This document shows, one piece after another, positions 8,289 through 33,327 of a stretch of DNA of 33,327 bases. This DNA comes from Geminicoccaceae bacterium. GTDB taxonomy: Bacteria; Pseudomonadota; Alphaproteobacteria; Geminicoccales; Geminicoccaceae. The stretch spans positions 1 through 33,327 of the forward strand of contig JANWZN010000017.1 in assembly GCA_025054575.1 (NCBI GenBank), written 5' to 3'. Within the stretch, counting starts at the first letter, position 1, and every line of letters starts with the position of its first letter. The notes beneath the pieces are model-generated. The model did no database searches, was not told the origin of the DNA, and worked only from the letters and a program-made list of their open reading frames with translations. The position numbers and the translations under genes are program-made.

Positions 8289-10090
8289 CGAAGCCTCGCG
8301 AGCTCGGCCCGTCCGGCGCGCACGGCCTCCAAGATCGCCTCGACCGTTTGCTCGATCGGGCCGTCGTTCTCGATGATCGGCAGCCGGTAGCGCGCGGCCA
8401 GGCGCAGATAGAGGGCGCGGCGGCGGGCGAAATTCTTGTCGGCAACCGCATCGGGACGGCCCGCTGCGATCAGCCCGGGATGGCGGACGAGCACGACCGC
8501 GGCCGCCGGCGCGGGCAGGAGCCGCAAGAGGCGCGGACCGAGCCGGTCGAGCACGAGCTCGTCGAGGCCCGTGTCGACGCACCAGTCGACGAGCGTATCG
8601 AGCAGGCAGCGATCGGAGAGGATGATAGCGCGACCGTGGCGAAACCGGAGGATCGTGTCGACGATCGTGTCGAGCAGCTGGAGAACCAGAAACGGAAGCG
8701 CGTAGGCCGTGCCGCGAAAGTCGTGATAGCCGATCGTGAAGCCCTGATGCCGCTCCTTGCGGTTGTGGCCGGTGAGCCGTGCCAGGGCGAGGAGCGGCTT
8801 CGAGAGATAATTGCGGAAGCGGCTCCACTGGTGTCGCGTTGCGAGACCCTGGGACCCCAGCCGTTCCCGCAGCCGCCCGAGCACGGTTGTCTTGCCGGCG
8901 CCGTCGACGCCGCAGATCGCGAGCAGGCGCAGATCGCCCAGGCGCCGCACGCCCGCCGGCTGCAGAAGGGGGGCGACCGCGCGGTCCCAGCGCGTCCAGA
9001 CCGCGGGGTCCGGCCGTGGCCCGGGTGCCGCCAGCGCGCGCACGAGCGCGCCCGGCAGATCCTCGGGGCGCGCGGCGACGATCCCGCCGAGCGCGCGGGC
9101 GTATTCGCCGACCCCGGGGGCTTCGAGGACGATCACCGGCCGGCCGGTCAAGGCGGCTTCGGCCACGACCAGCGGCACTTCCGAGATCGGCGCTCGGAAG
9201 GGCAGGAGAAAGGCGTGGCAGCGGGCGAGCCGCGCGCGGAGCTCGTCCGGCTCGAGCATCCGGGTCTCGAGCTCGATCGCATCGGCCACCGGGCTCGAGG
9301 CGAGCCGCCGCTGCAGCCAAGCGAGCGCACGCGGCCCGCCGTCGGGGCGGATCAAGAGCTCGAGACACCCGTCGAGCCCGAGGGCCCGAGCCCGCTCGAA
9401 CGCATCGATCGCGAGATCGACGCCGCGTGCGGCGAGCGCCGGCCCGAGATAAGCGATGCGCGGCGTGCCGGCAGGCGGTGGCAGGTTCGTGCAGAGGGCC
9501 GCGTCGACCTGGGGTCGAAGAAGCCGACCACGAGGCAGGCCCAGGGCGGCGTAACGCTGAGCGGCGGTCTCGCTCAGATAGAGCAGATCCTCGGCACCGG
9601 AGCGGGCGAAGCCGCGGCGGAGCTGGAAACCCGGGAGCAGCGCGTTGACGAGCGGGAGCGCTACCACCGCCCGCTCGCGCCAGAGTGCCGCGGGCCCGAG
9701 CGCCAGAAGCTCGCCCGGCCGGGCGCGCGGGCTCGCCATCACGAAGGTGACCGGGGCCGCGAGCTCGAGCGGGCGCGTGCGGGCGAGCGCCGTCGCCCCG
9801 GTGATCCAGAAGACGCGCTCGACCGCCGCCTCGGCGATCGCTGCGCGCAGCTCCACGCTCGCTGTTCGGTTCGCTTCCAGCTGCGCGACCCGCTGGATGC
9901 TCACCGCCGGCTCCTCGGGCGGATCGCGGGCGTCGGTGAGGAGAATCACCGCATGGCCGTGCGCGGCGAGCCCGCGGGCGATGCCCATGGCCACGTGCCA
10001 GGGCTGGCGGCGAACCCGATCGCGCTCGAGGCCGAAGCAGACGACCGCGAAGCGACGGGCCGGGGCCGGCGCCGGGCGCGGCAGGCTCAT
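8285..10090 (-). CDS. Glycosyltransferase (GT4-like) fused to a thymidylate-kinase-like domain
   Basis: A 601-residue two-domain protein. Residues 1-375 look like a GT-B glycosyltransferase: W-H-V-A-M-G-I-A-R-G-L near 31-41, TPRIAYLGPALAARGVDLAIDAF (split by position 209-231), and the second-domain ISEVPLVVAEAALTGRPVIV with an EX6E-like pair (Glu304, Glu311). After a short linker, residues 386-595 form a P-loop kinase: ICGVDGAGKTT with the Walker A lysine at 400, a DR pair at 493-494 in LSDRCLLDTLVDW, and an arginine-rich lid-like DKNFARRRALYLRLA (551-565). The kinase part resembles thymidylate kinases but is divergent, so dTMP is not an assured substrate. No internal stop or good internal start separates the two halves. 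The ATG at 10088-10090 overlaps the upstream stop as ATGA. Confidence 0.82.
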   Translation of the reverse strand: MSLPRPAPAPARRFAVVCFGLERDRVRRQPWHVAMGIARGLAAHGHAVILLTDARDPPEEPAVSIQRVAQLEANRTASVELRAAIAEAAVERVFWITGATALARTRPLELAAPVTFVMASPRARPGELLALGPAALWRERAVVALPLVNALLPGFQLRRGFARSGAEDLLYLSETAAQRYAALGLPRGRLLRPQVDAALCTNLPPPAGTPRIAYLGPALAARGVDLAIDAFERARALGLDGCLELLIRPDGGPRALAWLQRRLASSPVADAIELETRMLEPDELRARLARCHAFLLPFRAPISEVPLVVAEAALTGRPVIVLEAPGVGEYARALGGIVAARPEDLPGALVRALAAPGPRPDPAVWTRWDRAVAPLLQPAGVRRLGDLRLLAICGVDGAGKTTVLGRLRERLGSQGLATRHQWSRFRNYLSKPLLALARLTGHNRKERHQGFTIGYHDFRGTAYALPFLVLQLLDTIVDTILRFRHGRAIILSDRCLLDTLVDWCVDTGLDELVLDRLGPRLLRLLPAPAAAVVLVRHPGLIAAGRPDAVADKNFARRRALYLRLAARYRLPIIENDGPIEQTVEAILEAVRAGRAELARLR

Positions 10091-11229
10091 GCCGCCCGTG
10101 CCCGCGGCTGCGCCGCGACGTTGCCGTAGACGCTGGCGAGCTCGCGCGCGACCCGCTGCCAATCGAACCGTGCTCGGACCAAGAGCTGCGCCCGCCGCGC
10201 CCGCTCGAAGGCGGCTTGCGGGTCGGCCAAGACGGCCTCGATCCCGGCCCGCAGCGAGTCGACCGACCGCTCGACGACCGAAAGGGGCGGGTCCGCACCG
10301 AGCTCGGGGACGAGACCCGTGCGCGTCGTCACGGCCGGTGTCCCGGCCGCCATCGCCTCGAGCAGGGTCAAGGGGCCGCTCTCGTAATCGGCCGGGTTGA
10401 CGACGACCGCGGCCCGCGCGAGCCAGGCGCGCAAGGTGACCCGGTCGACGAAGCCCGCGAACAGGACCCGCTCGGCGATACCGAGCAGCTCGGCGCGCTT
10501 GCGCAGCTCCCGCTCGAGCGGGCCCTCGCCCAAGAGCACGAGGCGCGCCGAAAGCCGCTCGGGCAAGCCCGCGAAGGCGTCGAGCAGCCGATCGAGCCCT
10601 TTGCGCACCGCGAGCCGGCCGACATAGAGGACGATCGCCGCGCGCCGCACGGCGGGTGCTGCTGCGAAGAAGCGCGCATCGACACCGTTGCTCGCGACCA
10701 GGGGCTCGCGGCCGCGCAGCGCGTAGAGGGCCACGAGCTCGTCGCGGACGCCGGCCGAGACGGCCACGAGGCTGTCGGCTCGATCGAGCCAGGCCTGCTC
10801 GCAGTGTCGGCTGAAGAGCCGTGCATAGGCCTTGCGTGCTAGTGGCCCGAGCCCGCGCTCGGTGATCGCCGCGCTGTCGGCGAGCATCGGACTGTGGACC
10901 GTCACCACCACGGGTAGCTTCGTTCGCAGCGGCAACAGCAACGGCAGATGGACGTGGAGGAGCTCGGCGCCGTCGGCGCCGGCCTCGAGCCAATCGTGGA
11001 GGGCTCGCTGAGCCGCCACGTGGCCGAACGGCGGCGGCCCTTTCCAGTCGATCCGGCGAGCCGGTACCCCCTCGATCTCGACGAGACCGTCGGCACTCCC
11101 GGCCGGTGCCCGACCGACCAGCAGCGCCTCGATGCCGAACGCGGGCAGGCGCCGGGCGAGCTCGACCAGATGCCGGCCGATCCCCTCGCGCGGCGGCAAG
11201 AGGTTGTTGGTCAGGAGCGCTACCCGCAC
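10087..11229 (-). CDS. Glycosyltransferase family 4
   Basis: 380 residues from a GTG at 11227-11229, chosen because GGAG stands about nine bases before it and the first GT-B strand (VRVALLTNNLLP) begins there. Visible features are the REGIGRHLVELARRLP loop, LLHVHLPLLLPLRTKLPVVVTVHSP (split here, about residues 96-120), VAVSAGVRDELVALY, LYVGRLAVRKGLDRLLDAF, and the EX7E motif in ADYESGPLTLLEAMAAG. It is a standard retaining GT4 of the sort found in O-antigen and capsule clusters. The start lies 10 bases inside the end of the upstream GT2 gene, so the two are coupled. Sugar specificity is unknown. Confidence 0.88.
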   Translation of the reverse strand: MRVALLTNNLLPPREGIGRHLVELARRLPAFGIEALLVGRAPAGSADGLVEIEGVPARRIDWKGPPPFGHVAAQRALHDWLEAGADGAELLHVHLPLLLPLRTKLPVVVTVHSPMLADSAAITERGLGPLARKAYARLFSRHCEQAWLDRADSLVAVSAGVRDELVALYALRGREPLVASNGVDARFFAAAPAVRRAAIVLYVGRLAVRKGLDRLLDAFAGLPERLSARLVLLGEGPLERELRKRAELLGIAERVLFAGFVDRVTLRAWLARAAVVVNPADYESGPLTLLEAMAAGTPAVTTRTGLVPELGADPPLSVVERSVDSLRAGIEAVLADPQAAFERARRAQLLVRARFDWQRVARELASVYGNVAAQPRARAA

Positions 11230-12218
11230 GGGCGCGGCTCCGCATTCGAGGGCGCACTGGCGGCGGCGCGGACCAGCTCGTGCGACCGGCCGAGCCAGAA
11301 GAAATCCTGGCCCGAGCACCGCCGGGCGAGAGCCGGCGGCAGATGCCAGGCGAGCCGACCGAGTCGGTAGCCGAGAAACCGCACCGCCACGTCCGCCAGC
11401 GCCCAGGGCAACAGGTGCGGTGCTTCGCGCGCGAGCTCGGCAAAGAGACCGCGCACGAACAGCACGCCGCGCCGCTCGTCGGAGCCGTTCGCGAGCAGCA
11501 GGTGCCGCCAGGCCTCGCGCGTCCAGCCGACATCGAACTGGCGGCGGAAGCTGTCGACCAGCCGGGTCGGATGGGTGTGCTCGACGATCGCCTCGGTGAC
11601 ATAAGCGATCCGTTCGCCGCGGCGGAGCAGCTCGCAGACCGCGATCGTCTCCTCGCTCACCAGCGTCGGTTTGAACCCGCCGATGCGGTCGAGCGCCGCG
11701 TTCGACCAGGCGGCGCAGGCGTTCGAGCAGAAATGCACGGCACTGCCGAGCCGCGCGACGTCCTCGAGCCCGCGAACCTCGCTCCGCTCGGGGAAGCTGA
11801 AGCGGCGGCCGAAGCGGGCGATCGGGTCGGCCGTCTCGGCCGCCACCTGGCGCGCATAAGCAACCGCCGCGCGGCCCGAGGCGACCGGCTCGACCAGCTT
11901 CTCGAGGAAGTCGGGATCGCGCGCGAAGCAGTCGGGGGTCAGCATCACGACGATCTCGGTGCCGAGCCGTCGCCGGGCCGCCTCGCGGGTGAGGCCGTGG
12001 TTGAAGCTCGCGCGCGGGATCACCCAGGTGGCGCAGCCGAGCCGCTGCGCTAGCTCGACCGTGCCGTCGTTCGAGGAGGAGTTGACGACCAGCACCTCGG
12101 GGCGCAGCGGCGAGGCCAGGATCGGCGCGAGGCAGCGCTCGAGGATCGCGCGTGCTCGCCAGGTGATCACGACCACGCCGACCCGCGGTCGAGGAGCGGT
12201 CAGCTCCGCGTTCGTCAC
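11220..12218 (-). CDS. Glycosyltransferase family 2 (rhamnosyltransferase-like)
   Basis: 332 residues with a GT-A fold: VVVITWRARAILERCL at the N-terminus, VLVVNSSSNDGTVELAQRLG for the nucleotide-binding strand and loop, then the P-R-A-S-F-N-H-G-L-T-R-E motif, which is characteristic of the rhamnosyltransferase branch of GT2. A metal-site-like VVMLTPDCFARD follows. The C-terminal part carries the HTHPTRLVDSFRRQF segment often seen in these enzymes. It would transfer a (probably deoxy-) sugar to the growing lipid-linked oligosaccharide. The branch fits a cluster that makes a CDP-linked 6-deoxyhexose, although no dTDP-rhamnose genes are present here. Confidence 0.85.
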   Translation of the reverse strand: MTNAELTAPRPRVGVVVITWRARAILERCLAPILASPLRPEVLVVNSSSNDGTVELAQRLGCATWVIPRASFNHGLTREAARRRLGTEIVVMLTPDCFARDPDFLEKLVEPVASGRAAVAYARQVAAETADPIARFGRRFSFPERSEVRGLEDVARLGSAVHFCSNACAAWSNAALDRIGGFKPTLVSEETIAVCELLRRGERIAYVTEAIVEHTHPTRLVDSFRRQFDVGWTREAWRHLLLANGSDERRGVLFVRGLFAELAREAPHLLPWALADVAVRFLGYRLGRLAWHLPPALARRCSGQDFFWLGRSHELVRAAASAPSNAEPRPCG

Positions 12219-12238
12219 GGCTCGCCTCCAGCGCCCGG

Positions 12239-13267
12239 CTACGTCCTCGAGCGCGGGCCGCCGACCAGGATGCTAGCGAAACACCCGCCGTTTTCAACCT
12301 GAAATTGAGTAACGTTCGGCGTGAATCCTGCTTCCGGCGATCCGCGGACCTCCGCGGCGATGCCGTCCCAGAAGCGTTCGGGGTCCCAGGCCGGTGCCAG
12401 AAAGTCGAGGTGGTGGAGACCGACCCGAGCCACCGGCTCCTCGCTCGGCTCGGGCGGATCGGCCTCAAGGATCGCACAGGCGAGGCCCAGGCGCGGTGCG
12501 AGCGCGGCTGCCAGACGGCGGGCGAAGTCGGCGACGCGTTCCGGCCAGAAGCTCGGGACGAGGTGGATCGGCCGCTCTTCCTCGAGCAGGCGGCGGGCGG
12601 CGGCCGCATAGGCGAGGGCGAGCCCGTCGACCGGCAGGAAGTCGCGGATCAGATGCGGCCGGCGCAGAAAGGCCGGCTCGCCGCGCCGCCAGGCGGCGAG
12701 CAGGTCGGGGACGAGTCCGGTAGGCTTGTCGAGCGGGCCCACCGGATGGGCGATCACGAACTTGCCGAGTGCCAGGCCGCGGCGTTCGACCTCGAAGCGG
12801 ATCGTCTGCCAGATCAGCGTCTTGGCCAGGCCGTAACGGTTGAAGGCGCGCAAGGGTGCGCTGCCGCGGCCTTCGTCGGCCTCGAAGATCGAGCCGGTCA
12901 CGAGCACCGCACGGCCGCCCGATCGGGCGAACCGGTCGAGGAGCTCGCCGAGACCCGCACAGGTCCGCTCGAGCACGCCCGCGACGTCGAACCGGGCGGC
13001 GCGATGATCGCCGACCTCCGCCCCGTGCAAGCAGAGCAGCTGGGCGCGTTCCGCGGCCAGCCGCCGGGCCACGGCCGGGTCGGCTAGGCTGGGTGTGTGT
13101 GCGAGCCGGGTGCTGCCGGCCACGAGCGCCAGACGCCGGCGCTCGGGGAGCGCGTAGGCGTCCAACGCTCGCCGGTGCAGGCCCACGACCGCGAACCCGG
13201 CTGCGGCGAGCGCGCGGGCGAACCAGGCGCCGGTGAAGGAGGAGACGCCGGTGAAAAGCGCACGCAA
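12239..13267 (-). CDS. NAD(P)-dependent sugar epimerase/reductase (extended SDR)
   Basis: 342 residues starting at a TTG (13265-13267) with GAGGGG about eight bases ahead. The N-terminus has the variant dinucleotide motif TGVSSFTGAWFA (residues 6-17) and the catalytic YxxxK as Tyr145 and Lys149 in NRYGLAKTL, with Ser126 in VTGSIFEA. This is the layout of the NAD-dependent epimerase/dehydratase family. Standing between the rfbFGC-type genes and the glycosyltransferases, it is the likely final 4-keto reductase that turns the epimerised CDP-4-keto-6-deoxy sugar into the donor. The exact sugar is not readable. The last 35 residues (PEAGFTPNVTQFQVENGG and on) look poorly conserved. Confidence 0.75.
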   Translation of the reverse strand: MRALFTGVSSFTGAWFARALAAAGFAVVGLHRRALDAYALPERRRLALVAGSTRLAHTPSLADPAVARRLAAERAQLLCLHGAEVGDHRAARFDVAGVLERTCAGLGELLDRFARSGGRAVLVTGSIFEADEGRGSAPLRAFNRYGLAKTLIWQTIRFEVERRGLALGKFVIAHPVGPLDKPTGLVPDLLAAWRRGEPAFLRRPHLIRDFLPVDGLALAYAAAARRLLEEERPIHLVPSFWPERVADFARRLAAALAPRLGLACAILEADPPEPSEEPVARVGLHHLDFLAPAWDPERFWDGIAAEVRGSPEAGFTPNVTQFQVENGGCFASILVGGPRSRT

Positions 13268-13279
13268 CGATCCGACCCC

Positions 13280-13828
13280 TCAGGCGGCGAGATGGAAGAC
13301 CGGGTCGAAATCGGGGTGCGCACGATCGCGCGCGCTCACGACCGAGGGTGCGAACGGCCAGTCGATCGAAAAGCGCGGATCGTCGAACCGCACCCCGCGC
13401 TCGCGGCTCGGATCGTAGGCCGCCGAGACGAAGTAGAGCACAAGGACGTCCGGCTCGAGGGTCAAGAAGCCGTGGGCGCAGCCGGGCGGCACCACGATCG
13501 CGGCACGGTTGGCGGCGGACAGCTCGACCGCCGCCCAGCGCCCGAAGCTCGGCGAGGCCGGACGGAGGTCGAGCACGCAATCCCACACCGCGCCCTGAAC
13601 GCAGGTGACGAGCTTGGTCTCGGCCGAGGGCGGCAGCTGGTAGTGCAGCCCGCGCAGCGTGCCGCGTTCGCGGCTCCACGACAGGTTGGCCTGGGCGACC
13701 GGCAGGTCGACGTCGAGATCGGCGAGCGTGCTCTTGCAATAAGCACGCGCGAAAAAGCCCCGTTCGTCGAAGCGCGGGGCGAGCGAGAGCACCCGCACGC
13801 CCGGGAGGAGCTCGCCCGAGGGACGCAT
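13280..13828 (-). CDS. rfbC: dTDP-4-dehydrorhamnose 3,5-epimerase-like protein (RmlC family)
   Basis: 182 residues, the normal size for RmlC cupins. The key residues are in place: His62 in RGLHYQLPP (catalytic base), Lys73 in TKLVTCVQG, His119 in VPPGCAHGFLTL and Tyr132 in VLYFVSAAY (catalytic acid). The family epimerises C3 and/or C5 of a nucleotide-linked 4-keto-6-deoxyhexose. Here the neighbours are the CDP-glucose enzymes RfbF and RfbG, and no RmlA or RmlB is present, so the natural substrate is probably CDP-4-keto-6-deoxyglucose rather than the dTDP form. The ATG shares one base with the rfbF stop (TGATG). Confidence 0.87.
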   Translation of the reverse strand: MRPSGELLPGVRVLSLAPRFDERGFFARAYCKSTLADLDVDLPVAQANLSWSRERGTLRGLHYQLPPSAETKLVTCVQGAVWDCVLDLRPASPSFGRWAAVELSAANRAAIVVPPGCAHGFLTLEPDVLVLYFVSAAYDPSRERGVRFDDPRFSIDWPFAPSVVSARDRAHPDFDPVFHLAA

Positions 13829-14640
13829 CAGGCGGCCTCCCGACCGCGCCAGGGCGCCGCGCCCGACTCCCAGAGCGCGTGCATGCTCTCGCGGTCCTTC
13901 ATCGTGTCCATGGCCGACCAGAAGCCCTGGTGGCGGAACGGCCGGAGCTGGCGCTCGGCCGCCAGGCGACGCAAGGGGCCTTCTTCGAGGACACAAGCGT
14001 CGTCGGTCGAGAGATAGTCGAGGAAGGCACGGCGGAAGAAGAAGAAGCCCCCGTTGGTCCAGGTATCGCGCAGCATCGGCTTCTCGACGAAGCCGGTGAT
14101 TTCGCCGCGATCGAACTCGAGATGGCCGAAGGGCGAAACCGGGTTGACCGCCAAGAGCGTGCCGATCTTGCCGTGGGCGAGATGAAACTCGAGCTCGGCG
14201 CCGAGGTCGACGTCGGTCAGACCGTCGCCGTAGGTCACCGCGAAATGTTCGGCCTCGCCCAGATGGCGGGCGGCGGCGCGGGCGATCCTCGCGCCGGTCA
14301 TCGCGTCGGGCCCGGTGTGGGCGACGGTCACCTCCCAGTCGGGGCGGGCGCCGGTCTGGTGGAAGCTCACCTCGCCGGTTCGCATGTCGACCGTGAAGTC
14401 GTCGGTCATCGCGCGAAAATCCAGGAAGAAACTCGCGATGACCTCGGCCCGCCAGCCGGTGCACAGCACGAACCGACGGAAGCCGAAATGTGCGTACCAC
14501 TGCATGATGTGCAACAGGATCGGGCGGTCGCCGACCTCGACCATGGGCTTGGGCAGCCGCTGGCAGGTCTCGCCGAGGCGGGTGCCGCGGCCGCCGCACA
14601 GCACGAACACCGGAACGTCAGCCGGACGAGTAGAGATCAT
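13828..14640 (-). CDS. rfbF: Glucose-1-phosphate cytidylyltransferase
   Basis: RfbF makes CDP-glucose from CTP and glucose 1-phosphate, the entry step to CDP-linked deoxysugars. The 270 residues contain the nucleotidyltransferase signature VLCGGRGTRLGE (about 13-24), the KPMVEVGDRPILLHIM stretch (31-46), a metal-binding YGDGLTDVDL, FVEKPM, and NGGFFFFRRAFLDYL. The LHIM and EVGDRP details point to RfbF rather than RmlA. The start ATG at 14638-14640 lies 23 bases inside the end of rfbG. A possible variant is a slightly extended N-terminus (MISTRPADVP) compared with enteric RfbF. Confidence 0.92.
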   Translation of the reverse strand: MISTRPADVPVFVLCGGRGTRLGETCQRLPKPMVEVGDRPILLHIMQWYAHFGFRRFVLCTGWRAEVIASFFLDFRAMTDDFTVDMRTGEVSFHQTGARPDWEVTVAHTGPDAMTGARIARAAARHLGEAEHFAVTYGDGLTDVDLGAELEFHLAHGKIGTLLAVNPVSPFGHLEFDRGEITGFVEKPMLRDTWTNGGFFFFRRAFLDYLSTDDACVLEEGPLRRLAAERQLRPFRHQGFWSAMDTMKDRESMHALWESGAAPWRGREAA

Positions 14641-15748
14641 GGCGAACCTCCAGCCGGGGTCTCGCCGGGGCCGAGACGGGACGGGGTTGCGGTGCCTCGA
14701 TCCGGGCGCGGTAGCGCCGGAGCTGATCGAGGAGCCAATCGGCGTTCCCCGTCTCCAAGAGTTGGCGATAACCGTCGACGGTCCATTCGACCGCCTCGGA
14801 CGTCGAGAGCTGCGCCCGCCAGCCGAGCCGGCGGTTCGCGCGCTCGCAGGAAAGCCGCAACAGCGCCGCTTCGGCCGGAACCGGGCCCTGTTCCACCTGC
14901 CAGCCGCCGGCGCCGAGCCGGCGCGAGACCGCCGCTGCGATCTCGGCCACGGTCCACTCGCCGCCTGGCGCCGGACCGAAGTTCCAAGCACCGGCGAAGC
15001 GGGCCGGGTCGCGGACCAGGGCCTCGGCCAGCATAAGATAGCCGCCCAGCGCGTCGAGCACGTGCTGCCAGGGGCGGATCGCGCCCGGCCGACGCAGCAC
15101 CGGCTGCCGCCCGGCCGCGAAGGCGCGCACCAGATCGGGGACCAGCCGATGCGCCGACCAGTCGCCGCCGCCGATCACGTTGCCGGCGCGCGCGGTGGCG
15201 ACACCGATCCCGTTCCTGGCCGGCAGGTAGGTCGTCCGCCAGGCATGGACCGCGATCTCGGCGCAAGCCTTGCTCGCGGCATAAGGCTCGTCGCCGCCCA
15301 ACGGATCGTTCTCGCGGCAGGCCTGGTGCGGCTCGCGGTAGCACTTGTCGCTCGTCACCACCACGACCGCCCGGACCGAGGCGCTGCGCCGCACCGCCTC
15401 GAGCAGATTCACGGTTCCCATGAGGTTGGTCTCGAGTGTCCCGATCGGGTCCTCGAGCGCGTCGAAGACGATCGGCTTGCCGGCCAGATGCAAGACGATT
15501 TCGGGCTCGGCCGCGGCGACCGCGGCGACCAGCGCCGCGCGATCGCGCACATCGCCCGAGAGCGCTCCGATCTTGTGGTCGAGGCCGGCCAGCTCGAACA
15601 GAGACGGCGTCCAACGAGGCGGGTGGCCGAAACCGGTGACCTCGGCACCCAGCTCGACCAGCCAAGCGGCGAGCCACGTGCCCTTGAACCCGGCGTGACC
15701 CGTGAGCAGAACCCGACGACCGCGCCAAAACTCGGGATCGAGCCGCAT
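14618..15748 (-). CDS. rfbG: CDP-glucose 4,6-dehydratase
   Basis: RfbG removes water from CDP-glucose to give CDP-4-keto-6-deoxyglucose, using a bound NAD. The 376-residue protein has TGHAGFKGTWLAAWL (residues 16-30, the RfbG-type dinucleotide motif), ETNLMGTVNLLEAVR (106-120), VTSDKCYREP with Ser133, Asp134 and Lys135, and Tyr156/Lys160 in PYAASKACAE. The sequence RAGNVIGGGDWSAHRLVPD is also typical of this enzyme. It is the first gene of the leftward polysaccharide operon, with 160 bases of non-coding sequence ahead of it holding the probable promoter. The next gene, rfbF, starts before this one ends. Confidence 0.93.
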   Translation of the reverse strand: MRLDPEFWRGRRVLLTGHAGFKGTWLAAWLVELGAEVTGFGHPPRWTPSLFELAGLDHKIGALSGDVRDRAALVAAVAAAEPEIVLHLAGKPIVFDALEDPIGTLETNLMGTVNLLEAVRRSASVRAVVVVTSDKCYREPHQACRENDPLGGDEPYAASKACAEIAVHAWRTTYLPARNGIGVATARAGNVIGGGDWSAHRLVPDLVRAFAAGRQPVLRRPGAIRPWQHVLDALGGYLMLAEALVRDPARFAGAWNFGPAPGGEWTVAEIAAAVSRRLGAGGWQVEQGPVPAEAALLRLSCERANRRLGWRAQLSTSEAVEWTVDGYRQLLETGNADWLLDQLRRYRARIEAPQPRPVSAPARPRLEVRHDLYSSG

Positions 15749-25126: not shown

Positions 25127-25160
25127 ACCCCCGGTCGAGGGCTTATATCCGGTCGCGGAT

Positions 25161-25232
25161 TGGGGCGTCGCCAAGCGGTAAGGCAGCGGACTTTGGATCC
25201 GCCATCCGGTGGTTCGAATCCACCCGCCCCAG
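25161..25232 (+). tRNA. tRNA-Gln (anticodon TTG)
   Basis: The sequence folds as a complete cloverleaf: acceptor TGGGGCG (25161-25167) pairs with CGCCCCA (25225-25231), D-stem GCC/GGC, anticodon stem GCGGA/TCCGC (25186-25190 and 25198-25202) around the loop CTTTGGA, anticodon TTG at 25193-25195, T-arm GGTGG-TTCGAAT-CCACC. The discriminator is G at 25232. The CCA end is not encoded. A -10-like TTATAT stands at 25143-25148, 13 bases upstream. Confidence 0.95.
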
Positions 25233-25245
25233 CCCCAGCCATCGA

Positions 25246-25278: not shown

Positions 25279-26745
25279 GTGCACCCCTTCGACCTCGTCA
25301 TCCGCGGCGGCACCGTCGTCACCGCGACCGACCTCTTCGCGGCAGACATCGGCATCCGCGACGGACGCATCGCGGCAGTCGGGGCAGACCTGGCAGCCGC
25401 GCGCGAGGAGATCGACGCCCGCGGCCTGATCGTCACGCCGGGCGGCGTCGACAGCCACTGCCACATCGAGCAGCTCTCGGCCGCCGGGCTGGTCAACGCC
25501 GACACCTTCGAGAGTGCGACGGCCGCCGCCGCCCTGGGCGGCACCACGACCGTGATCCCCTTCGTTGCCCAGCACGTGGGCACCTCGCTCGCCGCCGTCG
25601 CCGAGGACTATCACCGCCGGGCCGAGCGCGGGGCGATCGTCGACTACGCCTTCCATCTGATCCTCGCCGACCCGCGACCCGAGATCCTGAAGGAGGAGCT
25701 GCCGCCGCTCGTGCGCGCCGGCCACGCCTCCTTGAAGGTCTTCTTGACCTACGACCGGCTCAAAATCGAGGACGAGCAGTATCTCGACGTGCTCGAGGCG
25801 GCCCGCGCCCACGGCCTCATGGTTTGCGTGCATGCCGAGAACCACGGCATGATCCGCTGGATGGGCCGGCGGCTGGTCGAGCGCGGCTTCACCGCACCCC
25901 GCTTCCACGTCCCCTCGCACCCCCGCATCGGCGAGGTCGAGGGCATCCACCGCGCGATCGCCTGCGCCGCGCTGGTCGATCAGCCGATCATGATCTTCCA
26001 CGTCTCGACCGCGGAAGGGGCGGCTGTGATCCACCGCGCCCGCGGCGAGGGCAGGAAGGTCTGGGGCGAGACCTGCACCCAGTATCTCACCCTGACCTCG
26101 GCCGAGCTCGACAAGCCGGGGATCGAGGGTGCCAAATGGATCTGCTCGCCGCCTCTGCGCGATCCCGCCGACCAGGAGGCGCTCTGGTGGTCCCTCGAGG
26201 TCGGGACCTTGCAGTGCGTCTCTTCCGACCACGCCCCCTACCGGATGGACGAGACCGGCAAGCTCGCCCGCGGCCCGAACCCCTCCTTCAAGGAGATCGC
26301 CAACGGCATGCCCGGCCTCGAGCTGCGCCTGCCGATCCTGTTCGACGCCATGGTCCATCGCGGCCGCGGGGGCTTGTGCCGCTTCGTCGAGCGCACCGCC
26401 ACCGCACCCGCGAAGATCTACGGCCTCCACCCGAAGAAGGGGACGATCGCGCCCGGTGCGGATGCCGACCTCGTGCTCTGGGACGCCGAGCGCACGGTCG
26501 CGATCGAGGACGCTCCGCGCCGCGACCGCGCCGGCTACACGCCCTATGCCGGCCGCACCGTGCGCGGCTGGCCGCGCCAGGTGCTCTTGCGCGGTCGGAC
26601 GATCGTGCGGGAGGGCGAGCTCCTGGGCGCCCCCGGGGAGGGCCGTTTCCTCCCCCGCTCCGGTGGCTGGGCGGCGGTGCCGACCGGCCGCAGCGAGCCC
26701 GAGCTCGACCCGGCCCGCAATTTCGGCGCCCGGCTGCGCCCGTGA
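25279..26745 (+). CDS. hydA: Dihydropyrimidinase / hydantoinase
   Basis: 488 residues from a GTG at 25279 with GAGGA before it. The binuclear zinc site of the cyclic amidohydrolases is complete: His60 and His62 in DSHCHIEQ, carboxylated Lys153 in SLKVFLTY, His185 in VHAENHG, His241 in IFHVSTAEG and Asp317 in VSSDHAPY. Tyr158 matches the substrate-gating tyrosine of dihydropyrimidinases. The enzyme opens a cyclic amide (dihydrouracil, hydantoin or a similar ring). It is the first gene of a six-gene operon whose other members are not pyrimidine-degradation enzymes and no beta-ureidopropionase is nearby, so the true ring substrate may be something else. Its stop overlaps the next start (GTGA). 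Confidence 0.9.
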   Translation: MHPFDLVIRGGTVVTATDLFAADIGIRDGRIAAVGADLAAAREEIDARGLIVTPGGVDSHCHIEQLSAAGLVNADTFESATAAAALGGTTTVIPFVAQHVGTSLAAVAEDYHRRAERGAIVDYAFHLILADPRPEILKEELPPLVRAGHASLKVFLTYDRLKIEDEQYLDVLEAARAHGLMVCVHAENHGMIRWMGRRLVERGFTAPRFHVPSHPRIGEVEGIHRAIACAALVDQPIMIFHVSTAEGAAVIHRARGEGRKVWGETCTQYLTLTSAELDKPGIEGAKWICSPPLRDPADQEALWWSLEVGTLQCVSSDHAPYRMDETGKLARGPNPSFKEIANGMPGLELRLPILFDAMVHRGRGGLCRFVERTATAPAKIYGLHPKKGTIAPGADADLVLWDAERTVAIEDAPRRDRAGYTPYAGRTVRGWPRQVLLRGRTIVREGELLGAPGEGRFLPRSGGWAAVPTGRSEPELDPARNFGARLRP

Positions 26746-27275
26746 GCACCGCCGACTGGAGCGAGGGCGCGCATGCGGCCCTGCGCCGCGCCGGCATCGG
26801 TCTTCTGGCGCACGTCCCAGATGCCGGCCTCGCCCGGCTGATCGAGCGCTGCGGTGCCGACCCGACGATGCGCGTCGTGGGCCTCGCCGACGAGCGCGAA
26901 GGGCCGGCCTTGTTGGCCGGCGCTTGGCTCGGCGGGCTCAAAGGCGTGCTCGCCTGCCAGTCGAGCGGGGTCGGCAACCTCGTCAACATGCTGGGGCTCG
27001 CGGCCACCGGCCGTTTCCCGCTCGTGATGATCGTCACCATGCGCGGCGAGTGGGGCGAGGAGAATCCCTGGCAGGTGCCGATGGGCCGGGCGGTCCCGGC
27101 CGTCCTCGAGGCCATGGGCGTGCGGCTCCTCTCGCTCGAGCGGGCGGAGGAGGCGGGCGCTGTCCTCGACGGTGCCACAGGCCTCGCCTTCGGCTCGGAG
27201 CAGAGGGTGGCGGTGCTCGTCCGCCAGCGCGTTCTGGGCGCCAAGCGCTTCCTCGCCGCAGGCGGTGGCCGATGA
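26742..27275 (+). CDS. ThDP-dependent decarboxylase, alpha (Pyr-domain) subunit, ComD-like
   Basis: 177 residues starting at a GTG. The sequence is a stand-alone thiamine-diphosphate Pyr domain: LLAHVPDAGLARLIERC, then VVGLADEREGPALLAGAWLGG, which holds the glutamate (51 or 53) that activates the cofactor, then QSSGVGNLVNMLGLAATGRFPLVMI and MRGEWGEENPWQVPMGRA. This is the arrangement of sulfopyruvate decarboxylase alpha (ComD) and of the N-terminal half of phosphonopyruvate decarboxylase. The cofactor-binding half is the next gene. The likely reaction is decarboxylation of a 3-substituted pyruvate to an aldehyde; the substituent cannot be told. Both of its gene junctions are 4-base overlaps. 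Confidence 0.8.
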   Translation: MSTADWSEGAHAALRRAGIGLLAHVPDAGLARLIERCGADPTMRVVGLADEREGPALLAGAWLGGLKGVLACQSSGVGNLVNMLGLAATGRFPLVMIVTMRGEWGEENPWQVPMGRAVPAVLEAMGVRLLSLERAEEAGAVLDGATGLAFGSEQRVAVLVRQRVLGAKRFLAAGGGR

Positions 27276-27862
27276 GGACCGACCTCGACCGCCGCGCGCT
27301 CGTCGCTCGCCTGGTCGCCCGGCGCGGCCCGGCGCTCCTGTTGGCCGGCCTCGGCTCGCCGGCCTGGGACCTCGCCGCCGCCGGCGACCATCCGCATCAC
27401 TTCTATCTATGGGGCGGGATGGGCGGTGCCTTTGCGATGGGCCTGGGCCTGGCACTGGCGCGGCCGGAACGCCGCGTGGTCGTGCTCGCGGGCGACGGCG
27501 AGGCGCTCATGGGCCTGTCCTCGCTCGCCACGATCGCGGCTGCGAAGGCTTCGAACCTCGCGCTCCTCGTGCTCGACAACGCCGCCTATGGCGAAACCGG
27601 CGGCCAGCCGACCGCCACCGAGGCAGGGGTCGATCTCGCCGGCATGGCGGCCGCCGCCGGCTTCCCCTCGACCCTGCGCCTCGAGCGGGCCGAGGACATC
27701 GAAGCCGCGCTCGACCTCCTCCTCGAGGGGCCGGGTCCGGTGCTCGTCCAGGCCCGCATCGACCGGCGGCCGCAGCCGCTCGTCCTGCCGCCCAAGGACG
27801 TCGTTCTCCTCAAGGCGCGCCTGCGCGCCGCCCTCGGGGTCGAGCCCGAGCTCGCCCGATGA
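27272..27862 (+). CDS. ThDP-dependent decarboxylase, beta (PP-domain) subunit, ComE-like
   Basis: 196 residues forming the diphosphate-binding domain: FYLWGGMGGAFAMGLGLALA (44-63), then the ThDP motif GDGEALMGLSSLATIAAAK starting at 74 and ending in LVLDNAAYGETGGQPT with Asn103. The GETGGQPT stretch is characteristic of sulfopyruvate and phosphonopyruvate decarboxylases. It must pair with the preceding Pyr-domain subunit to build active sites at their interface. The ATG overlaps that gene's stop (ATGA). Confidence 0.83.
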   Translation: MRTDLDRRALVARLVARRGPALLLAGLGSPAWDLAAAGDHPHHFYLWGGMGGAFAMGLGLALARPERRVVVLAGDGEALMGLSSLATIAAAKASNLALLVLDNAAYGETGGQPTATEAGVDLAGMAAAAGFPSTLRLERAEDIEAALDLLLEGPGPVLVQARIDRRPQPLVLPPKDVVLLKARLRAALGVEPELAR

Positions 27863-29544
27863 CCGACCCGACGGTCCGGGGCGGTGCCCGTTGGCTCGCC
27901 GAGGCGCTGGCCGGGGCCGGCACGAGCCACGTCTTCTTCGTCGATGCCATCCTCCGCCGCACGCTCATCGAGCTCGAGGGGCTGGGCGTGCGCCGGGTCC
28001 TCGCCCACGCCGAGAAGGCCGCCGCCTACATGGCCGACGGCTGGGCGCGCACCGCGCTCCGCCCGGGCCTCTGCATGGCCCAGTCGGTGGGTGCGGCCAA
28101 CCTCGCAGCCGGGCTGCAGGACGCCTTTCTCCACCGCGCGCCCGTGATCGCGCTCGCCGGCCGCAAGCCGCCCTCGCACCAGCACCGCAACGCCTACCAG
28201 GAGATCGACCACGACGGCCCCTTCGCCGCCGTGACCAAGGCCCGCGCCCGGGTGGAGACACCCGAAGAGCTCCCGCACCTCTTGCGCCTCGCCTTCCGCG
28301 AGGCGAGCGAGGGCACGCCCCGGCCCGTCCACCTCGACCTGCCGGGGCTGCAGGGCGAGATCCTCGAGACCGCCACCCTCGCCGAGCCGCCTTCGATCGA
28401 GCCGCGGCACACCCGCGTCCCAGCAAGAAGGCCGCCGCCGGATCCGGGCGAGATCGAGGCCGCCGCGCGCGCCCTCGCCGCGGCCGTCCGGCCGGTGATC
28501 GTGGCCGGTGCGGGCGCCGTGCTCTCCGGTGCCGGGCCGGCGCTGCGAGCACTGGCCGAGGCGGGGCCGATCCCGGTCGCCACCTCGCTCGGCGGCCGAG
28601 GCCTTTTCCCGACCGACCATGCGCTCTCGATCGGCGTCGTCGGCACCTACTCGGCTCCGCCCGCCAACCGACTCGTCCACGAGGCCGATCTCGTACTCTT
28701 CGTCGGCTGCCACACGGGCGACCAGGTCACCCAGAACTGGACCGTCCCGCCGCCCGGCCGCGCGATCCTCCAGATCGACCTCGACCCGCGCGAACTCGGC
28801 CGCTCCTATCCCGGCACGCTCGGCGTGCTCGCCGATCCGGCCCGTGCGCTGGACGCGCTGCGGGCGGTCCTCGCCCCGCGGCCCGCCTGGACCGCCTGGG
28901 CCGAGCGGGTGGCGGGCAGCGTCGCCGCCTGGCGGGCGGCGATGGCGCCGCTCCTCGCCTCCGATGCCGTGCCGATCCGGGTCGAGCGGCTCTGCGCCGA
29001 GCTCTCGGCCGTGCTGCCCGAGGACGCCGTTCTCGTCGCCGATACCGGCTATTCCGGGATCTGGACGGGGACCCTGGTCGAGCTGCGCTCGCCCGCCCAG
29101 CGTTACCTCAGGGCCGCCGGCTCCTTGGGCTGGGCCTTTCCCGCGGCGATCGGCGCCCAATGTGCCGCCCCCGACCGGCCGGTCGTCTGCTTCTGCGGCG
29201 ACGGCGCCTTTTACTACTACCTGGGGGAGCTCGAGACCGCCCGCCGCCTCGGTCTGCCGCTCGTCGTGATCGTCAACGACAATTCCGCCTTCGGCCAAGG
29301 GCTCGTGAACGTCCGCCGCCTGCAGGGCGACCGGCCGGGCAACCCGGACGAGATCGTCCGCTTCGGCCCGACCGACTTCGCCGCGGTGGCCCGCGCCTTC
29401 GGGGTCGAGGGCATCCGGGTCGAGCGGCCGGAGGCGATCCGTCCCGCCCTCGAGCGCGCGCTCGCCATAGGCGGCCCCGTCGTGGTCGACGTCGTCACCG
29501 ACCCTTGGCCGCGCGCCCCCGAACCCTGGACCCCGCCGCCGTGA
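27859..29544 (+). CDS. Acetolactate-synthase-like ThDP enzyme
   Basis: 561 residues with the three domains of the POX/ALS family. The Pyr domain has the activating Glu52 in LAHAEKAAAYMADGWAR; the central domain has the VIVAGAGAVLSGAGPALRAL Rossmann start (213-232); the PP domain has CGDGAFYYYLGELETARR (446-463) ending in IVNDNSAFGQG. An S-L-G-W-A-F-P-A-A-I-G segment precedes it. Members split between carboligases (acetolactate, glyoxylate) and decarboxylases, and the sequence does not decide. It is remarkable that a second, independent ThDP enzyme follows the ComDE-like pair in one operon. Junctions on both sides are 4-base overlaps. Confidence 0.85.
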   Translation: MTDPTVRGGARWLAEALAGAGTSHVFFVDAILRRTLIELEGLGVRRVLAHAEKAAAYMADGWARTALRPGLCMAQSVGAANLAAGLQDAFLHRAPVIALAGRKPPSHQHRNAYQEIDHDGPFAAVTKARARVETPEELPHLLRLAFREASEGTPRPVHLDLPGLQGEILETATLAEPPSIEPRHTRVPARRPPPDPGEIEAAARALAAAVRPVIVAGAGAVLSGAGPALRALAEAGPIPVATSLGGRGLFPTDHALSIGVVGTYSAPPANRLVHEADLVLFVGCHTGDQVTQNWTVPPPGRAILQIDLDPRELGRSYPGTLGVLADPARALDALRAVLAPRPAWTAWAERVAGSVAAWRAAMAPLLASDAVPIRVERLCAELSAVLPEDAVLVADTGYSGIWTGTLVELRSPAQRYLRAAGSLGWAFPAAIGAQCAAPDRPVVCFCGDGAFYYYLGELETARRLGLPLVVIVNDNSAFGQGLVNVRRLQGDRPGNPDEIVRFGPTDFAAVARAFGVEGIRVERPEAIRPALERALAIGGPVVVDVVTDPWPRAPEPWTPPP

Positions 29545-30494
29545 TCGTCTTCTCGAGCGTCGCGGTCTTGGGTGCTGGGACCATGGGCCATGCGCTGGCC
29601 CTCGTCCACGCGCTGGCCGGGTGTTCCGTCCGCCTGCAGGACATCCGCCCCGAGGCGCTCGAGCGCGCCCGCGAGCTGATCGAGGCCGCGCTCTCCACAC
29701 TCGTCGAGGCGGGCGAGGTCGGCGAGGGGGCCGCCGCCGCGGCGCGGGCGCGGATCGTCGCGGTCTCGAGCCTCGAGGCGGCCGTGACGGATGCCGAGCT
29801 CGTGATCGAGACGATCGTCGAGGACCGCGAGGCCAAGCGGGCCCTTTTCGCCGACCTCGCGCGGCTCGTCCCGGCCGAGGCGGTCGTCGCCTCGAACACC
29901 TCCTATCTCGACGTCTTCCCGCTGATGCCCGAGGACCTCCAGCGCCGGGCGGCGATCGCGCATTGGTACACCCCACCCTACATCCTCGACCTGGTCGATC
30001 TGGTGCCGGGGCCGGCGACCGATCCCGCCCTGCTCGACCGGCTCGAGGCCTTCTACCGGGCGATTGGCAAGCGGCCCGTGCGCTTTTCCCGCATGCTCGA
30101 GGGCTACGTCGCCAACCGGCTGCAGGCGGCGATGACCGCTGAGATCTTCCGCCTGTTGGACGAGGAGGGCATCGAGCCCGCGGTCATCGACGAATCGATC
30201 CGCCACGGCCTCGGCCTTCGGCTCCTGCTCATGGGCCAGCTCGAGAAGGCCGACTACACGGGCCTCGAACTCGTGGCCAAAGCGCTCGCCAACCGCTCCT
30301 ACACCCCGCCGCCGCCGCGCACGCGAAGCACGACCCTCGACCGGCTCCTGGCCGAGGGGCGGACCGGCGTGCTCGCCGGCCGCGGCTTCTTCGACTATGG
30401 CGGCAAGCCGGCCGCGGCGCTCTTCCGCGAGCGCGACCGGAAGCTCCTGACCCTCAAACGCGCCTGGCGGGCGATCGCGGAGGAGGGGCGATGA
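29541..30494 (+). CDS. 3-hydroxyacyl-CoA dehydrogenase-family NAD-dependent dehydrogenase
   Basis: 317 residues from a GTG overlapping the upstream stop (GTGA). The N-terminal Rossmann fold has VAVLGAGTMGHALALVHALA (7-26) and an aspartate (Asp34) at the end of the second strand that favours NAD. The catalytic zone is ASNTSYLDV (Ser118, Asn119) and His141 in AHWYTPPYILDLVDLVPG. The usual fatty-acid version is HFFNP; H-W-Y-T-P-P is a departure and is closer to the relatives acting on free hydroxy acids such as carnitine or gulonate dehydrogenases. The C-terminal helical domain (FSRMLEGYVANRLQAAMTAE) is intact. I infer oxidation of a hydroxy acid or its reverse rather than beta-oxidation. Confidence 0.83.
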   Translation: MIVFSSVAVLGAGTMGHALALVHALAGCSVRLQDIRPEALERARELIEAALSTLVEAGEVGEGAAAAARARIVAVSSLEAAVTDAELVIETIVEDREAKRALFADLARLVPAEAVVASNTSYLDVFPLMPEDLQRRAAIAHWYTPPYILDLVDLVPGPATDPALLDRLEAFYRAIGKRPVRFSRMLEGYVANRLQAAMTAEIFRLLDEEGIEPAVIDESIRHGLGLRLLLMGQLEKADYTGLELVAKALANRSYTPPPPRTRSTTLDRLLAEGRTGVLAGRGFFDYGGKPAAALFRERDRKLLTLKRAWRAIAEEGR

Positions 30495-31255
30495 TCACGG
30501 CGGATCTCTCGGGCCGGACGGCCTTGGTCACGGGTGGGGCGTCGGGCATCGGCCTCGCCACGGTCGAGCGGCTGGCCCGGGCCGGTGCGCGGGTCGCCTT
30601 GAACCATCTCGAGGTCGATCCGCGCGGGCCCGAACAGGCGCTGCGCCTGCGCGCCGAAGGTCTCGAGGTCTTCGCGGTCGCGGGCTCGGTCGCCGTGCCC
30701 GGCGAGGCCGAGGCCATGGTCCGCGAAGCGATCGCCGAGCTCGGCCGCCTCGACTACCTCGTCAACAACGCCGGCACGGCCGCCACCGACCGGCCGATCC
30801 CGCCCGCCGAGCTCGACCGGCTCGACGAGGGCTTCTGGAAGACCATCCTGGATACCAACCTGTTGGGCGCCGTCCGCTGCGCCCATGCCGCAGCCGGGGC
30901 CCTGCGGGAAGCCGGCGGCGCCGTCGTCAACGTAGCTTCGGTGGCCGGGCTCGGCCGGCAGGGCAGCTCGATCGCCTATGGTGCCTCCAAGGCCGCGCTG
31001 ATCGAGCTCACCCGCGGCCTCGCGCGCGCCCTGGCACCCGACGTGCGGGTCAACGCGGTGGCCCCGGGCCATGTCGATTCGCCCTGGACCGCGGCCTGGC
31101 CGCAGGCCTGGAAGGAGGAGGCCGCGCAAAAGGCGCTGCTCAAACGCCGGTGCACCCCCGACGACATCGCCGAGGCGATTTTCTATCTGTTGGCCGGGGC
31201 GCGGATGGTCACCGGTCAGGTGCTGGTGGTCGACGGCGGGCTCACCCTCGGCTGA
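30491..31255 (+). CDS. Short-chain dehydrogenase/reductase
   Basis: 254 residues, classical SDR. Motifs are TGGASGIGLA (14-23), VNNAGTA (91-97), Asn123, Ser150 in NVASVAG, and Tyr163/Lys167 in AYGASKAAL, ending with a YLLAGARMVTGQVLVVDGG tail. Such enzymes interconvert alcohols and ketones/aldehydes with NAD(P). After Lys and Arg-free strand 2 it has NHLEVDP, so cofactor choice is unclear. As the last gene of the operon, it could reduce or oxidise the aldehyde made by the ThDP decarboxylase. The ATG overlaps the preceding stop as ATGA. Confidence 0.87.
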   Translation: MITADLSGRTALVTGGASGIGLATVERLARAGARVALNHLEVDPRGPEQALRLRAEGLEVFAVAGSVAVPGEAEAMVREAIAELGRLDYLVNNAGTAATDRPIPPAELDRLDEGFWKTILDTNLLGAVRCAHAAAGALREAGGAVVNVASVAGLGRQGSSIAYGASKAALIELTRGLARALAPDVRVNAVAPGHVDSPWTAAWPQAWKEEAAQKALLKRRCTPDDIAEAIFYLLAGARMVTGQVLVVDGGLTLG

Positions 31256-31279: not shown

Positions 31280-32251
31280 TCAGGGGACGAAGGAGCCGCC
31301 GCGCTCGTCCTCGATGTGCTGGCGGACGATCGACTCGACGTCCTCGTCGACCGGGAAGCCGAGCTTGAGCGCCCGCTCCGGCGCGAAGTTCCAGGGGATC
31401 GAGAGCACCACCCGGCGGATCAGCGCGTCCGGCTCGTACGTGATCCGCGAGGTCACACCCTTCCCGGCGATCCGCTCGAGGGCGGCGATCTCCTCGGCCA
31501 CCGTGAAGGCGATGCCGGGGAGGAGAAGCGAGCGGTCCCGGCCGAGCGCTCCCTCGTCGAGCTCGGCCGCGTGCAGGAAGGCCTGCACCACCGCCCGCGG
31601 CGAGAGGCAGTACATCTTGGTGTCGACCGGCACCGGACAGTTCGCCGTCTCGCCGTTCAAGGGCTCGCGCACGATCGAGGAGAGGAAGGTCGTGGTGGCG
31701 AGGTTCGGCCGGCCCGGGCGGACCACGATCGTGGGCAGCCGGAGGCTCGTGCCGACCACGAAGCCCTTCCGGTGATAGTCCGCGACCAGCCGCTCGCCCA
31801 TGGCCTTCTGGTTGCCATAGGAGCTCTGCGGGGTGAGATGCGTCGTGTCCGTGATCGGCTCGGGCAGGTCGCCGCCATAGACCGCGCAGGAGGAGGCGAA
31901 GACGAAGATCGGCCGCCGGCCGAGATGGCGCGCTGCTTCGAGCACGAAGCGCGTGCCGTCGAGATTGACGGCGTAGCCGAGCTCGAAGTCCGTCTCGGCC
32001 TGGCCGGAGACTACGGCCGCCAGGTGGAAGACCGCGTCGAACCCGCCCGCGAACCAGGAGAAGACCGCGCCCTGACGGGTCACGTCGCCCGCGATCGTCT
32101 CCACCCGCGGATCCTCGAAGCCCTGCGCCTTCACCACGTCGACGAGCCGGATCCGCTCGATCGGTCGCCCGGCGAGCGTACCGCGATCGAGGAGGGCTCG
32201 GGCGAGCTTGCTGCCGATGAACCCGGCCCCGCCGGTGATCAGGATCCGCAT
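31280..32251 (-). CDS. denD: NAD-dependent epimerase/dehydratase, D-erythronate dehydrogenase (DenD)-like
   Basis: 323 residues from the ATG at 32249-32251, chosen over a GTG six bases upstream because GGGGAGG is well spaced for the ATG. It is an extended [20 protein letters not shown] (5-21), [24 protein letters not shown] (75-92), [10 protein letters not shown] with Ser121, and Tyr145/Lys149 in [13 protein letters not shown]. The features [13 protein letters not shown]-like segment, [13 protein letters not shown] and MYCLSPRAV are what I recall for DenD, which oxidises D-erythronate in four-carbon sugar-acid catabolism. The partner genes (otnK, otnC, otnI) are not in the window, so the assignment is by family only. 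It faces the catabolic operon and is divergent from the flavoprotein. Confidence 0.8.
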
Positions 32252-32382: not shown

Positions 32383-33327
32383 GTGGATCTGCCGGACCGG
32401 GTCGAGGTCGTGATCGTGGGCGGTGGCATCGTCGGCTGCTCGATCGCCTACCACCTGGCGCGGCTCGGCATCACCGACACGCTCCTTCTCGAACGCAAGC
32501 AGCTCACCTGTGGGACGACCTGGCACGCCGCCGGCCTGATCGGCCAGCTGCGCGCCACGCGGCGGCTCACCGAGCTCGCCCGCTACACCGCCAAGCTCCT
32601 GCCCGAGCTCGAAGCCGAGACCGGCATCGCCACGGGCTTTCGCCAGAAGGGCTCGCTCGCCCTCGCGCTCCACGCCGAGCGCTTCCACGAGCTCAGGCGC
32701 GGCGCCTCGATGGCGAAGAGCTTCGGCCTCGAGGTCGAGGTCCTGGGCCCGGCCGAGGCGAAGCGGCTGCATCCCCTGGTCGAGACCGGCGACGCGGTGG
32801 GCGCGGTCTTCCTCCCGGGCGACGGCCAGGCCGATCCGGTCGGCATCACCCAGGCCTTCGCCAAGGGCGCCCGCCAGCGCGGTGTGCGGATCGTGGAGAA
32901 CTGCCCGGTCGAGCGGATCCTGGTCGAGAACGGTCGCGCGGTCGGCGTCCGCACGCCCGTGGGCGAGGTCCGCGCCGGCACGGTCGTGATCGCCGCCGGC
33001 ATGTGGTCGCACGCTCTGGGCCGGGCGATCGGCGTGAGCCTGCCGCTGCACGCCGCCGAGCACTTCTACATCGTCACCGAGCCGATCCCCGACCTGCCGC
33101 GCGACCTGCCGGTGCTGCGGGTCATGGACGAGTGCGCCTACTACAAGGAGGAGGCGGGCAAGATCCTCCTTGGCTGCTTCGAGCCCGTGGCCAAGCCCTG
33201 GGGCATGGACGGCATCCCCGAGGATTTCGCCTTCACGACGCTGCCCGAAGACCTCGACCACTTCCAGCCGATCCTCGAGCGGGCCATGTACCGGGTGCCG
33301 GTCCTGCAGAAGGCCGGCATCAAGACC
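32383..33327 (+). CDS. Dimethylglycine/sarcosine dehydrogenase-like flavoprotein, N-terminal part (runs off window)
   Basis: The frame opens at a GTG (32383-32385) after GGGGAGGGGG and stays open to the last base, giving 315 residues of a longer protein. It begins [20 protein letters not shown], the FAD-binding dinucleotide motif with Gly13, Gly15 and Gly18, then [22 protein letters not shown]. His48 in TWHAAG aligns with the histidine that carries covalent FAD in dimethylglycine and sarcosine dehydrogenases. Later segments ([54 protein letters not shown]) match this family. Full-length relatives are about 800 residues with a C-terminal aminomethyltransferase-like folate domain; whether it is present here cannot be seen. 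Confidence 0.88.

Follow-up and report, generated by a model that had tools for sequence, protein, structure and literature searches.

Six genes that meet end to end on one strand of a Geminicoccaceae contig raise the question of whether a hydantoinase, two different thiamine diphosphate (ThDP) enzymes and two dehydrogenases are held together by a single pathway. The window, as the whole analysed stretch of 33,327 nucleotides is called here, is contig C88 of a 3.5-Mb assembly of 429 contigs (genome G000; GenBank GCA_025054575.1, contig JANWZN010000017.1), and the genes lie at 25279-31255 on the forward strand. An original prediction, made from the DNA alone, had read the four-base start/stop overlap at every one of the five junctions as strict coupling and had proposed one pathway that opens a cyclic amide and passes the product through keto-acid decarboxylation and redox steps. 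A sequence check confirmed the six open reading frames and all five overlaps where they had been described, and the same arrangement recurs in KatS3mg117 (G131), also of the Geminicoccaceae. Codon-position GC is coding-like in all six genes and each has family matches. On comparison with related genomes, the six genes are probably a composite unit of three pieces with separate histories, namely hydA, the comD-comE pair and a module encoding an acetolactate synthase (ALS)-like enzyme, a dehydrogenase of the 3-hydroxyacyl-CoA dehydrogenase fold (HAD) and a short-chain dehydrogenase (SDR).

The pieces come apart within the genus. Among six genomes compared (G000, G131, G405, G403, G404 and G316) the six genes are contiguous in only two, G000 and G131. 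G405 has all six, with a response regulator, a kinase, a PepSY_2-domain protein and a cytochrome b561 in the interval between comE and ALS; the kinase label, like the urease, TctC and TRAP labels below, comes from reading translations without a library search. In G403, hydA-comD-comE is followed on the opposite strand by a DarT ADP-ribosyltransferase and NADAR antitoxin pair (L232:9724-11643) and then, some 2.0 kb beyond comE, by the first codons of ALS. The contig breaks off within this gene, the remainder of which opens another contig together with HAD and SDR. The comE/ALS junction is therefore a seam: of the four genomes with genes on either side of it, two have it closed and two have it occupied by other genes, unrelated and of a different kind in each. 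In G404 and G316, hydA and the HAD gene remain, and no matches to comD, comE, ALS or SDR were found in the 19.9-kb stretches. Genome-wide, comD was found in neither, and ALS matches were absent from G404 and at most 41% identical in G316, the search for SDR covering the fetched stretches only. The comDE pair and ALS thus have the same presence pattern, in four of the six genomes. In the hydA phylogeny a sister pair, G404 and G316, branches apart from the remaining four genomes (support 0.985). The regulator/cytochrome cassette lies upstream of ALS in G405 (L155:10896-13962) and upstream of HAD in G404 (L214:5901-8908), where it stands between hydA and HAD with 60-84% identity to the G405 copies. 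The remaining four genus genomes gave no match to its kinase at E ≤ 1e-60. The cassette may be ancestral or inserted, since on the trees its distribution takes either two separate gains or a single gain with three or more losses. A conserved six-gene unit across Alphaproteobacteria was rejected, being found in none of the comE, ALS or hydA neighbourhoods outside the genus.

The overlaps themselves are special only mildly and are a weaker sign of strict coupling than had been claimed. In KatS3mg117, the nearest named relative of the window among the matches listed in the ALS scan, they read GTGA, TTGA, ATGA, TTGA and GTGA, with start codons partly different. Among the 20 other same-strand neighbour pairs of the window, nine could overlap in this way, seven of them with the called starts, and a run of four overlapping junctions occurs at 4991-11229. 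Across 22 loci from Geminicoccaceae or related genomes, including loci that hold parts of this operon, 47 of 203 pairs could do so; the sole run of five is that of the KatS3mg117 locus.

The first piece, hydA (25279-26745, +), encodes a D-hydantoinase/dihydropyrimidinase that scores above two NCBIfam cut-offs (NF009941, 701 bits against 647; TIGR02033, 544.7 against 393.25). The metal site of D-hydantoinases consists of an HxH motif, a carboxylated lysine, two histidines and an aspartate, and the metal-ligand motifs are kept in a full-length alignment with the best solved relative, the D-hydantoinase 1nfg. Matches at E ≤ 1e-100 are present in 24 of the 31 genomes of the family, including all six of the genus, and hydA is the only such match in its own genome; it is a core gene of the Geminicoccaceae. 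None of the 17 hydA loci read outside the genus has comD, comE, ALS, HAD or SDR at more than 38% identity within its stretch. A gene of the Asp/Glu/hydantoin racemase family lies 66-124 bases from hydA in six of them, and an N-carbamoyl-D-amino-acid hydrolase about 1.2-1.5 kb away in four. The hydrolase of L220 scores 359-403 bits against solved N-carbamoyl-D-amino-acid hydrolases, the next enzymes scoring below 79. All six genus genomes have a match to this hydrolase (60-71% identity) away from the locus, that in G000 spanning residues 1-197 of 313. In the four stretches that include both of its flanks (L242, L244, L245 and L246) the hydrolase gene adjoins urease-like genes, which suggests linked release of amide nitrogen.

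The original prediction had found no standard partner for pyrimidine degradation, which is true of the window and not of the genome. A PreA gene scores 722.8 bits against a cut-off of 335, which the family exceeds in two of 14 control genomes, and the neighbour of the gene is of the PreT type and bears dihydropyrimidine dehydrogenase domain II, a domain that is not specific on its own. A gene of the M20 hydantoinase/carbamoylase family passes its cut-off in each of the six genus genomes, the window's own included. The pyrimidine-breakdown genes are not co-located with hydA and lie on other contigs (C221 and C370); the genome holds both the dihydropyrimidine dehydrogenase and the N-carbamoyl hydrolase that reductive pyrimidine breakdown requires. 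Since the genome has PreA/PreT, M20 and D-carbamoylase genes away from the cluster, a full route for pyrimidines or hydantoins could be drawn without the other five genes. Given the PreA/PreT-type dihydropyrimidine dehydrogenase and the M20 carbamoylase, the breakdown of pyrimidines or hydantoins is the most likely role of hydA. HydA would hydrolyse dihydropyrimidines, most likely, and possibly 5-substituted hydantoins, and its partners would be PreT/PreA, the M20 carbamoylase and the N-carbamoyl-D-amino-acid hydrolase.

The second piece consists of the comD-like (26742-27275, +) and comE-like (27272-27862, +) genes for the N-terminal and the C-terminal, ThDP-binding (PF02775) halves of one enzyme. 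The identities first given to the six genes broadly stand, except that comD and comE fall well below the sulfopyruvate decarboxylase cut-offs (TIGR03845, 96.6 bits against 147.95; TIGR03846, 129.5 against 221.5) and that ALS, as described below, reaches no cut-off among the families listed. The solved matches are 9u8q and 9iz3 for comD and 9iz3_B, a putative phosphonopyruvate decarboxylase beta, for comE. Relatives of comE at E ≤ 1e-20 are found in 81 of 289 genomes of the class, and comD matches (E ≤ 1e-15) in nine of the 31 family genomes, four of the six in the genus among them. Sixty comE loci were fetched, one of which is KatS3mg117, leaving 59 outside the genus, several of them short because the contigs end. 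A comD match is present in 57 of these 59 (L038 and L092 are without it), an ALS match (E ≤ 1e-10) in two, at 27-28% identity, and a hydA or HAD match at E ≤ 1e-15 in none, nor was hydA found at 1e-10. No neighbour is common to all 14 comE loci that were read gene by gene. Elsewhere the comDE relatives occur as a pair with no fixed neighbour, and in the window the pair would encode a two-subunit ThDP decarboxylase of a probably acidic 2-oxo acid. One locus (L039:8111-10355) has two tandem comDE pairs followed by what appears, by reading only, to be an aldehyde dehydrogenase gene.

The third piece, made up of ALS (27859-29544, +), HAD (29541-30494, +) and SDR (30491-31255, +), is a separate conserved module, old and co-inherited across Alphaproteobacteria. 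This was seen in a scan of named genomes with ALS, in which the best 80 of 546 confirmed stretches were taken as the ALS loci; they overlap the other genome set, L249, L250 and L324 corresponding to G131, G406 and G307. With thresholds of at least 45% identity for HAD and at least 48% for SDR, 31 of the 80 have both partners, ten SDR only, three HAD only and 36 neither, so that SDR is linked to ALS in 41. The linkage count is a lower bound because 13 of the 36 partnerless loci have less than 3.5 kb of flank on one side. The order ALS, HAD, SDR on one strand is kept in 24 of the 31 complete loci and ALS is divergent in seven, while HAD and SDR are spaced at -4 in 27. The linked loci are clustered on the ALS tree (seven changes, where none of 500 shuffles gave fewer than 18), and comparison of the ALS, HAD and SDR distance matrices gives correlations of 0.94, 0.81 and 0.77 (n = 32 sets), values that shared ancestry alone can raise. 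The module occurs in Acetobacteraceae, roseobacters and Geminicoccaceae. No comD match at E ≤ 1e-10 was found among the other 79 ALS loci, and all 30 of the other loci with ALS, HAD and SDR are without comDE.

A diagnostic feature of the module is in the active site of its HAD. In 3-hydroxyacyl-CoA dehydrogenases the catalytic residues are a His-Glu pair. The HAD of the window has both the N- and C-terminal Pfam domains (PF02737/PF00725) and lacks this pair, since in its motif HWYTPPYxxDLVD an aspartate takes the usual position of the catalytic glutamate, the histidine being kept. HWYTPPY or HWYSPPY followed by DLVD, with the aspartate in place, is found in all 31 readable module HADs, window included (L264, for which there are no data, is outside this count), and the HADs of G404, G316 and G406 also carry the aspartate motif. 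Glutamate occupies the position in all three solved relatives shown and in three HAD paralogues from the same data, a fourth reading being too short to tell Glu from Asp. The nearest solved relative is 3ado, L-gulonate 3-dehydrogenase/lambda-crystallin, at only 123.5 bits. The SDR (PF13561/PF00106) has YGASK, which fits the YxxxK motif of classical SDRs. The ALS (PF02776/PF00205/PF02775) reaches no NCBIfam cut-off among the 25 listed of 54 matching families; its best equivalog is TIGR00118 (299 bits against 538.35), its best subfamily PRK06112 (344 against 673), and the sulfoacetaldehyde acetyltransferase (Xsc) family TIGR03457 scores 207.7 against 676.4. Aligned to acetohydroxyacid synthase I (6lpi), it keeps the Glu and GDG..N positions.

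The surroundings of the module offer some indication of its substrate class. One protein cluster of LacI-type regulators is represented in six loci, its member in L259 being nearest to the GntR/IdnR gluconate-idonate regulators and below the cut-off (290.9 bits against 400). A cluster of TctC-type binding proteins is represented in eight loci and one of TRAP-type large subunits in six, both by reading. Together with the likeness of the HAD to lambda-crystallin, this LacI, TctC and TRAP context suggests that the module serves hydroxy-acid or sugar-acid catabolism. The two dehydrogenases would act on a hydroxy acid or sugar acid, the HAD presumably at the 3-position as in L-gulonate 3-dehydrogenase, and the ALS-type ThDP lyase would decarboxylate or cleave the keto product. 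Gene identities, conservation, separability and motifs are observed here; co-transcription, the substrates and the direction and order of these steps are inferred. In G406, a PLP gene resembling CuyA and D-cysteine desulfhydrase lies downstream of SDR (L156:6159-7166; 244 bits against a cut-off of 450).

Several observations weigh against a composite of three unrelated pieces and against the role proposed for the module. The substrate class suggested here is read from remote likenesses, to lambda-crystallin and, in one LacI regulator that scores below the cut-off, to GntR/IdnR. In six Roseomonas-type loci an M20 gene of the carbamoylase family lies downstream of SDR on the same strand; when tested in L316 it scored 274 bits for the hydantoinase/carbamoylase family against a cut-off of 204. 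HyuA-type genes are found 2-9 kb from the module in seven loci, and three of the other 79 ALS loci have hydA-type matches: L275 (49% identity, on the opposite strand 5 kb away, with no HAD or SDR), L299 (32%) and, as a short match, L322 (44%, 6 kb past SDR). Given these M20 and HyuA-type genes, a tie between the module and amide hydrolysis may recur, or may reflect the history of a clade, the numbers being small. Racemase-family hits of more than 100 bits occur in all four genus genomes with comDE and ALS and in neither of the two without, a pattern that may reflect clade only. Finally, G000 and G131 both have the compact six-gene form and its five overlaps, which may reflect selection for co-expression.

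Some of these points favour a single pathway, in which HydA would open a cyclic amide and the carbamoyl amino acid would be freed and converted to a keto acid, which the dehydrogenases and the ThDP enzymes would then process. The contiguity in two genomes, the proximity of carbamoylase-family and HyuA-type genes to the module in some loci of Acetobacteraceae type and the D-carbamoylase elsewhere in the genome would all fit. Such a pathway is improbable, however, when two genus members that keep hydA lack comDE, ALS and SDR at the locus, other genes occupy the comE/ALS interval in G405 and G403, hydA is unlinked to the other five in the 17 loci outside the genus, and only L322 among the 30 other module loci lacking comDE has even a short hydA-type match. 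The inference first drawn has the compact form in two genomes and the M20 gene in its favour, and is not borne out by the variation within the genus or the separation of hydA outside it. A related proposal would keep the module as an undescribed catabolic route, in which the changed His-Asp dehydrogenase would yield a 3-keto hydroxy acid that the ALS-like enzyme splits, with the cyclic amidohydrolase and second ThDP decarboxylase joined to it in this genus so that ring-opened amides feed the same line; as a whole this seems unlikely.

If hydA were instead a passenger, HAD and SDR could make a 2-oxo acid that comDE decarboxylates, with ALS condensing or cleaving the aldehyde. This order of steps is chemically sensible and is favoured by the comE/ALS overlap in two genomes and by the shared presence of comDE and ALS in four of the six, but it is hard to reconcile with the lack of a comD match in any of the other 79 ALS loci, with the 57 of 59 comE loci outside the genus that have no ALS match (the two others reaching 27-28% only) and with the genes between comE and ALS in G405 and G403, and we regard it as improbable. 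A sulfonate or phosphonate route, with comDE acting on sulfo- or phosphonopyruvate and ALS a relative of Xsc, has in its favour the family likeness of comDE and the CuyA-like gene beside the module in G406. It is very improbable given how far comD, comE and ALS fall short of the respective scores cited above and that no sulfonate or phosphonate family is at cut-off among eight window proteins scanned; a sulfonate/phosphonate operon was rejected because these three proteins miss the curated cut-offs. The composite of three pieces is the reading we prefer.

The genes around the cluster come from a simple gene caller; some of their names were assigned from the translations by eye, and a subset was searched against libraries. 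A tRNA-Gln gene (TTG; 25160-25235, +, ARAGORN) ends 43 bases upstream of the operon. Downstream are a D-erythronate dehydrogenase gene (31280-32251, -; NF043036, 415 bits against a cut-off of 325) and, after it, an FAD oxidoreductase gene (32383-33327, +), and both are found 3' of the operon site in all six genus genomes, the D-erythronate dehydrogenase of G404 being seen solely as a tblastn match. At 4991-15748 (-) a run of genes with four successive four-base overlaps resembles glycosyltransferase and nucleotide-sugar genes, judged from the translations only.

Most of the striking six-gene combination dissolves on comparison, and the lasting interest is in the three-gene ALS-HAD-SDR module, with its diagnostic active-site change. 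Searches of open-licence PubMed Central aimed at them found neither the six-gene set nor the module, nor a published role for it, which is weak evidence of absence; no paper on the named genome came up either. The module is a concrete target for assigning a bacterial hydroxy-acid pathway, and the locus is a caution that shared overlaps in GC-rich genomes are not to be taken as a shared pathway.

Every one of the six proteins belongs to a known superfamily. HydA matches the D-hydantoinases and dihydropyrimidinases (1nfg) in family scores and metal-binding positions, and differs in that its gene is not beside pyd or carbamoylase genes, the partners being elsewhere in the genome. The comD-comE pair resembles ComDE and phosphonopyruvate decarboxylase in that the two ThDP halves, N- and C-terminal, are encoded by separate genes that overlap, but is far below the equivalog cut-offs, and its relatives have no constant neighbour. 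With acetohydroxyacid synthase-like enzymes (6lpi; BbmA, 8x3x) the window ALS shares the three-domain layout and the catalytic-Glu position while remaining below the listed equivalog cut-offs. Glyoxylate carboligase is not known to have the catalytic Glu, and a route of that type was rejected because this position is filled in the ALS alignment. The HAD has both Pfam domains of L-gulonate 3-dehydrogenase, lambda-crystallin and the 3-hydroxyacyl-CoA dehydrogenases (nearest structures 3ado and 3f3s), from which the module HADs differ by Asp for Glu and by the HWYTPPY stretch. The vertebrate route through L-gulonate 3-dehydrogenase, 3-dehydro-L-gulonate decarboxylase and L-xylulose reductase, as outlined in passages of PMC12435205, provides a formal parallel only, in that decarboxylase and reductase steps come after a 3-dehydrogenase of the HAD fold; the decarboxylase described there is a DUF1907 zinc protein, whereas the window ALS is of the ThDP type.

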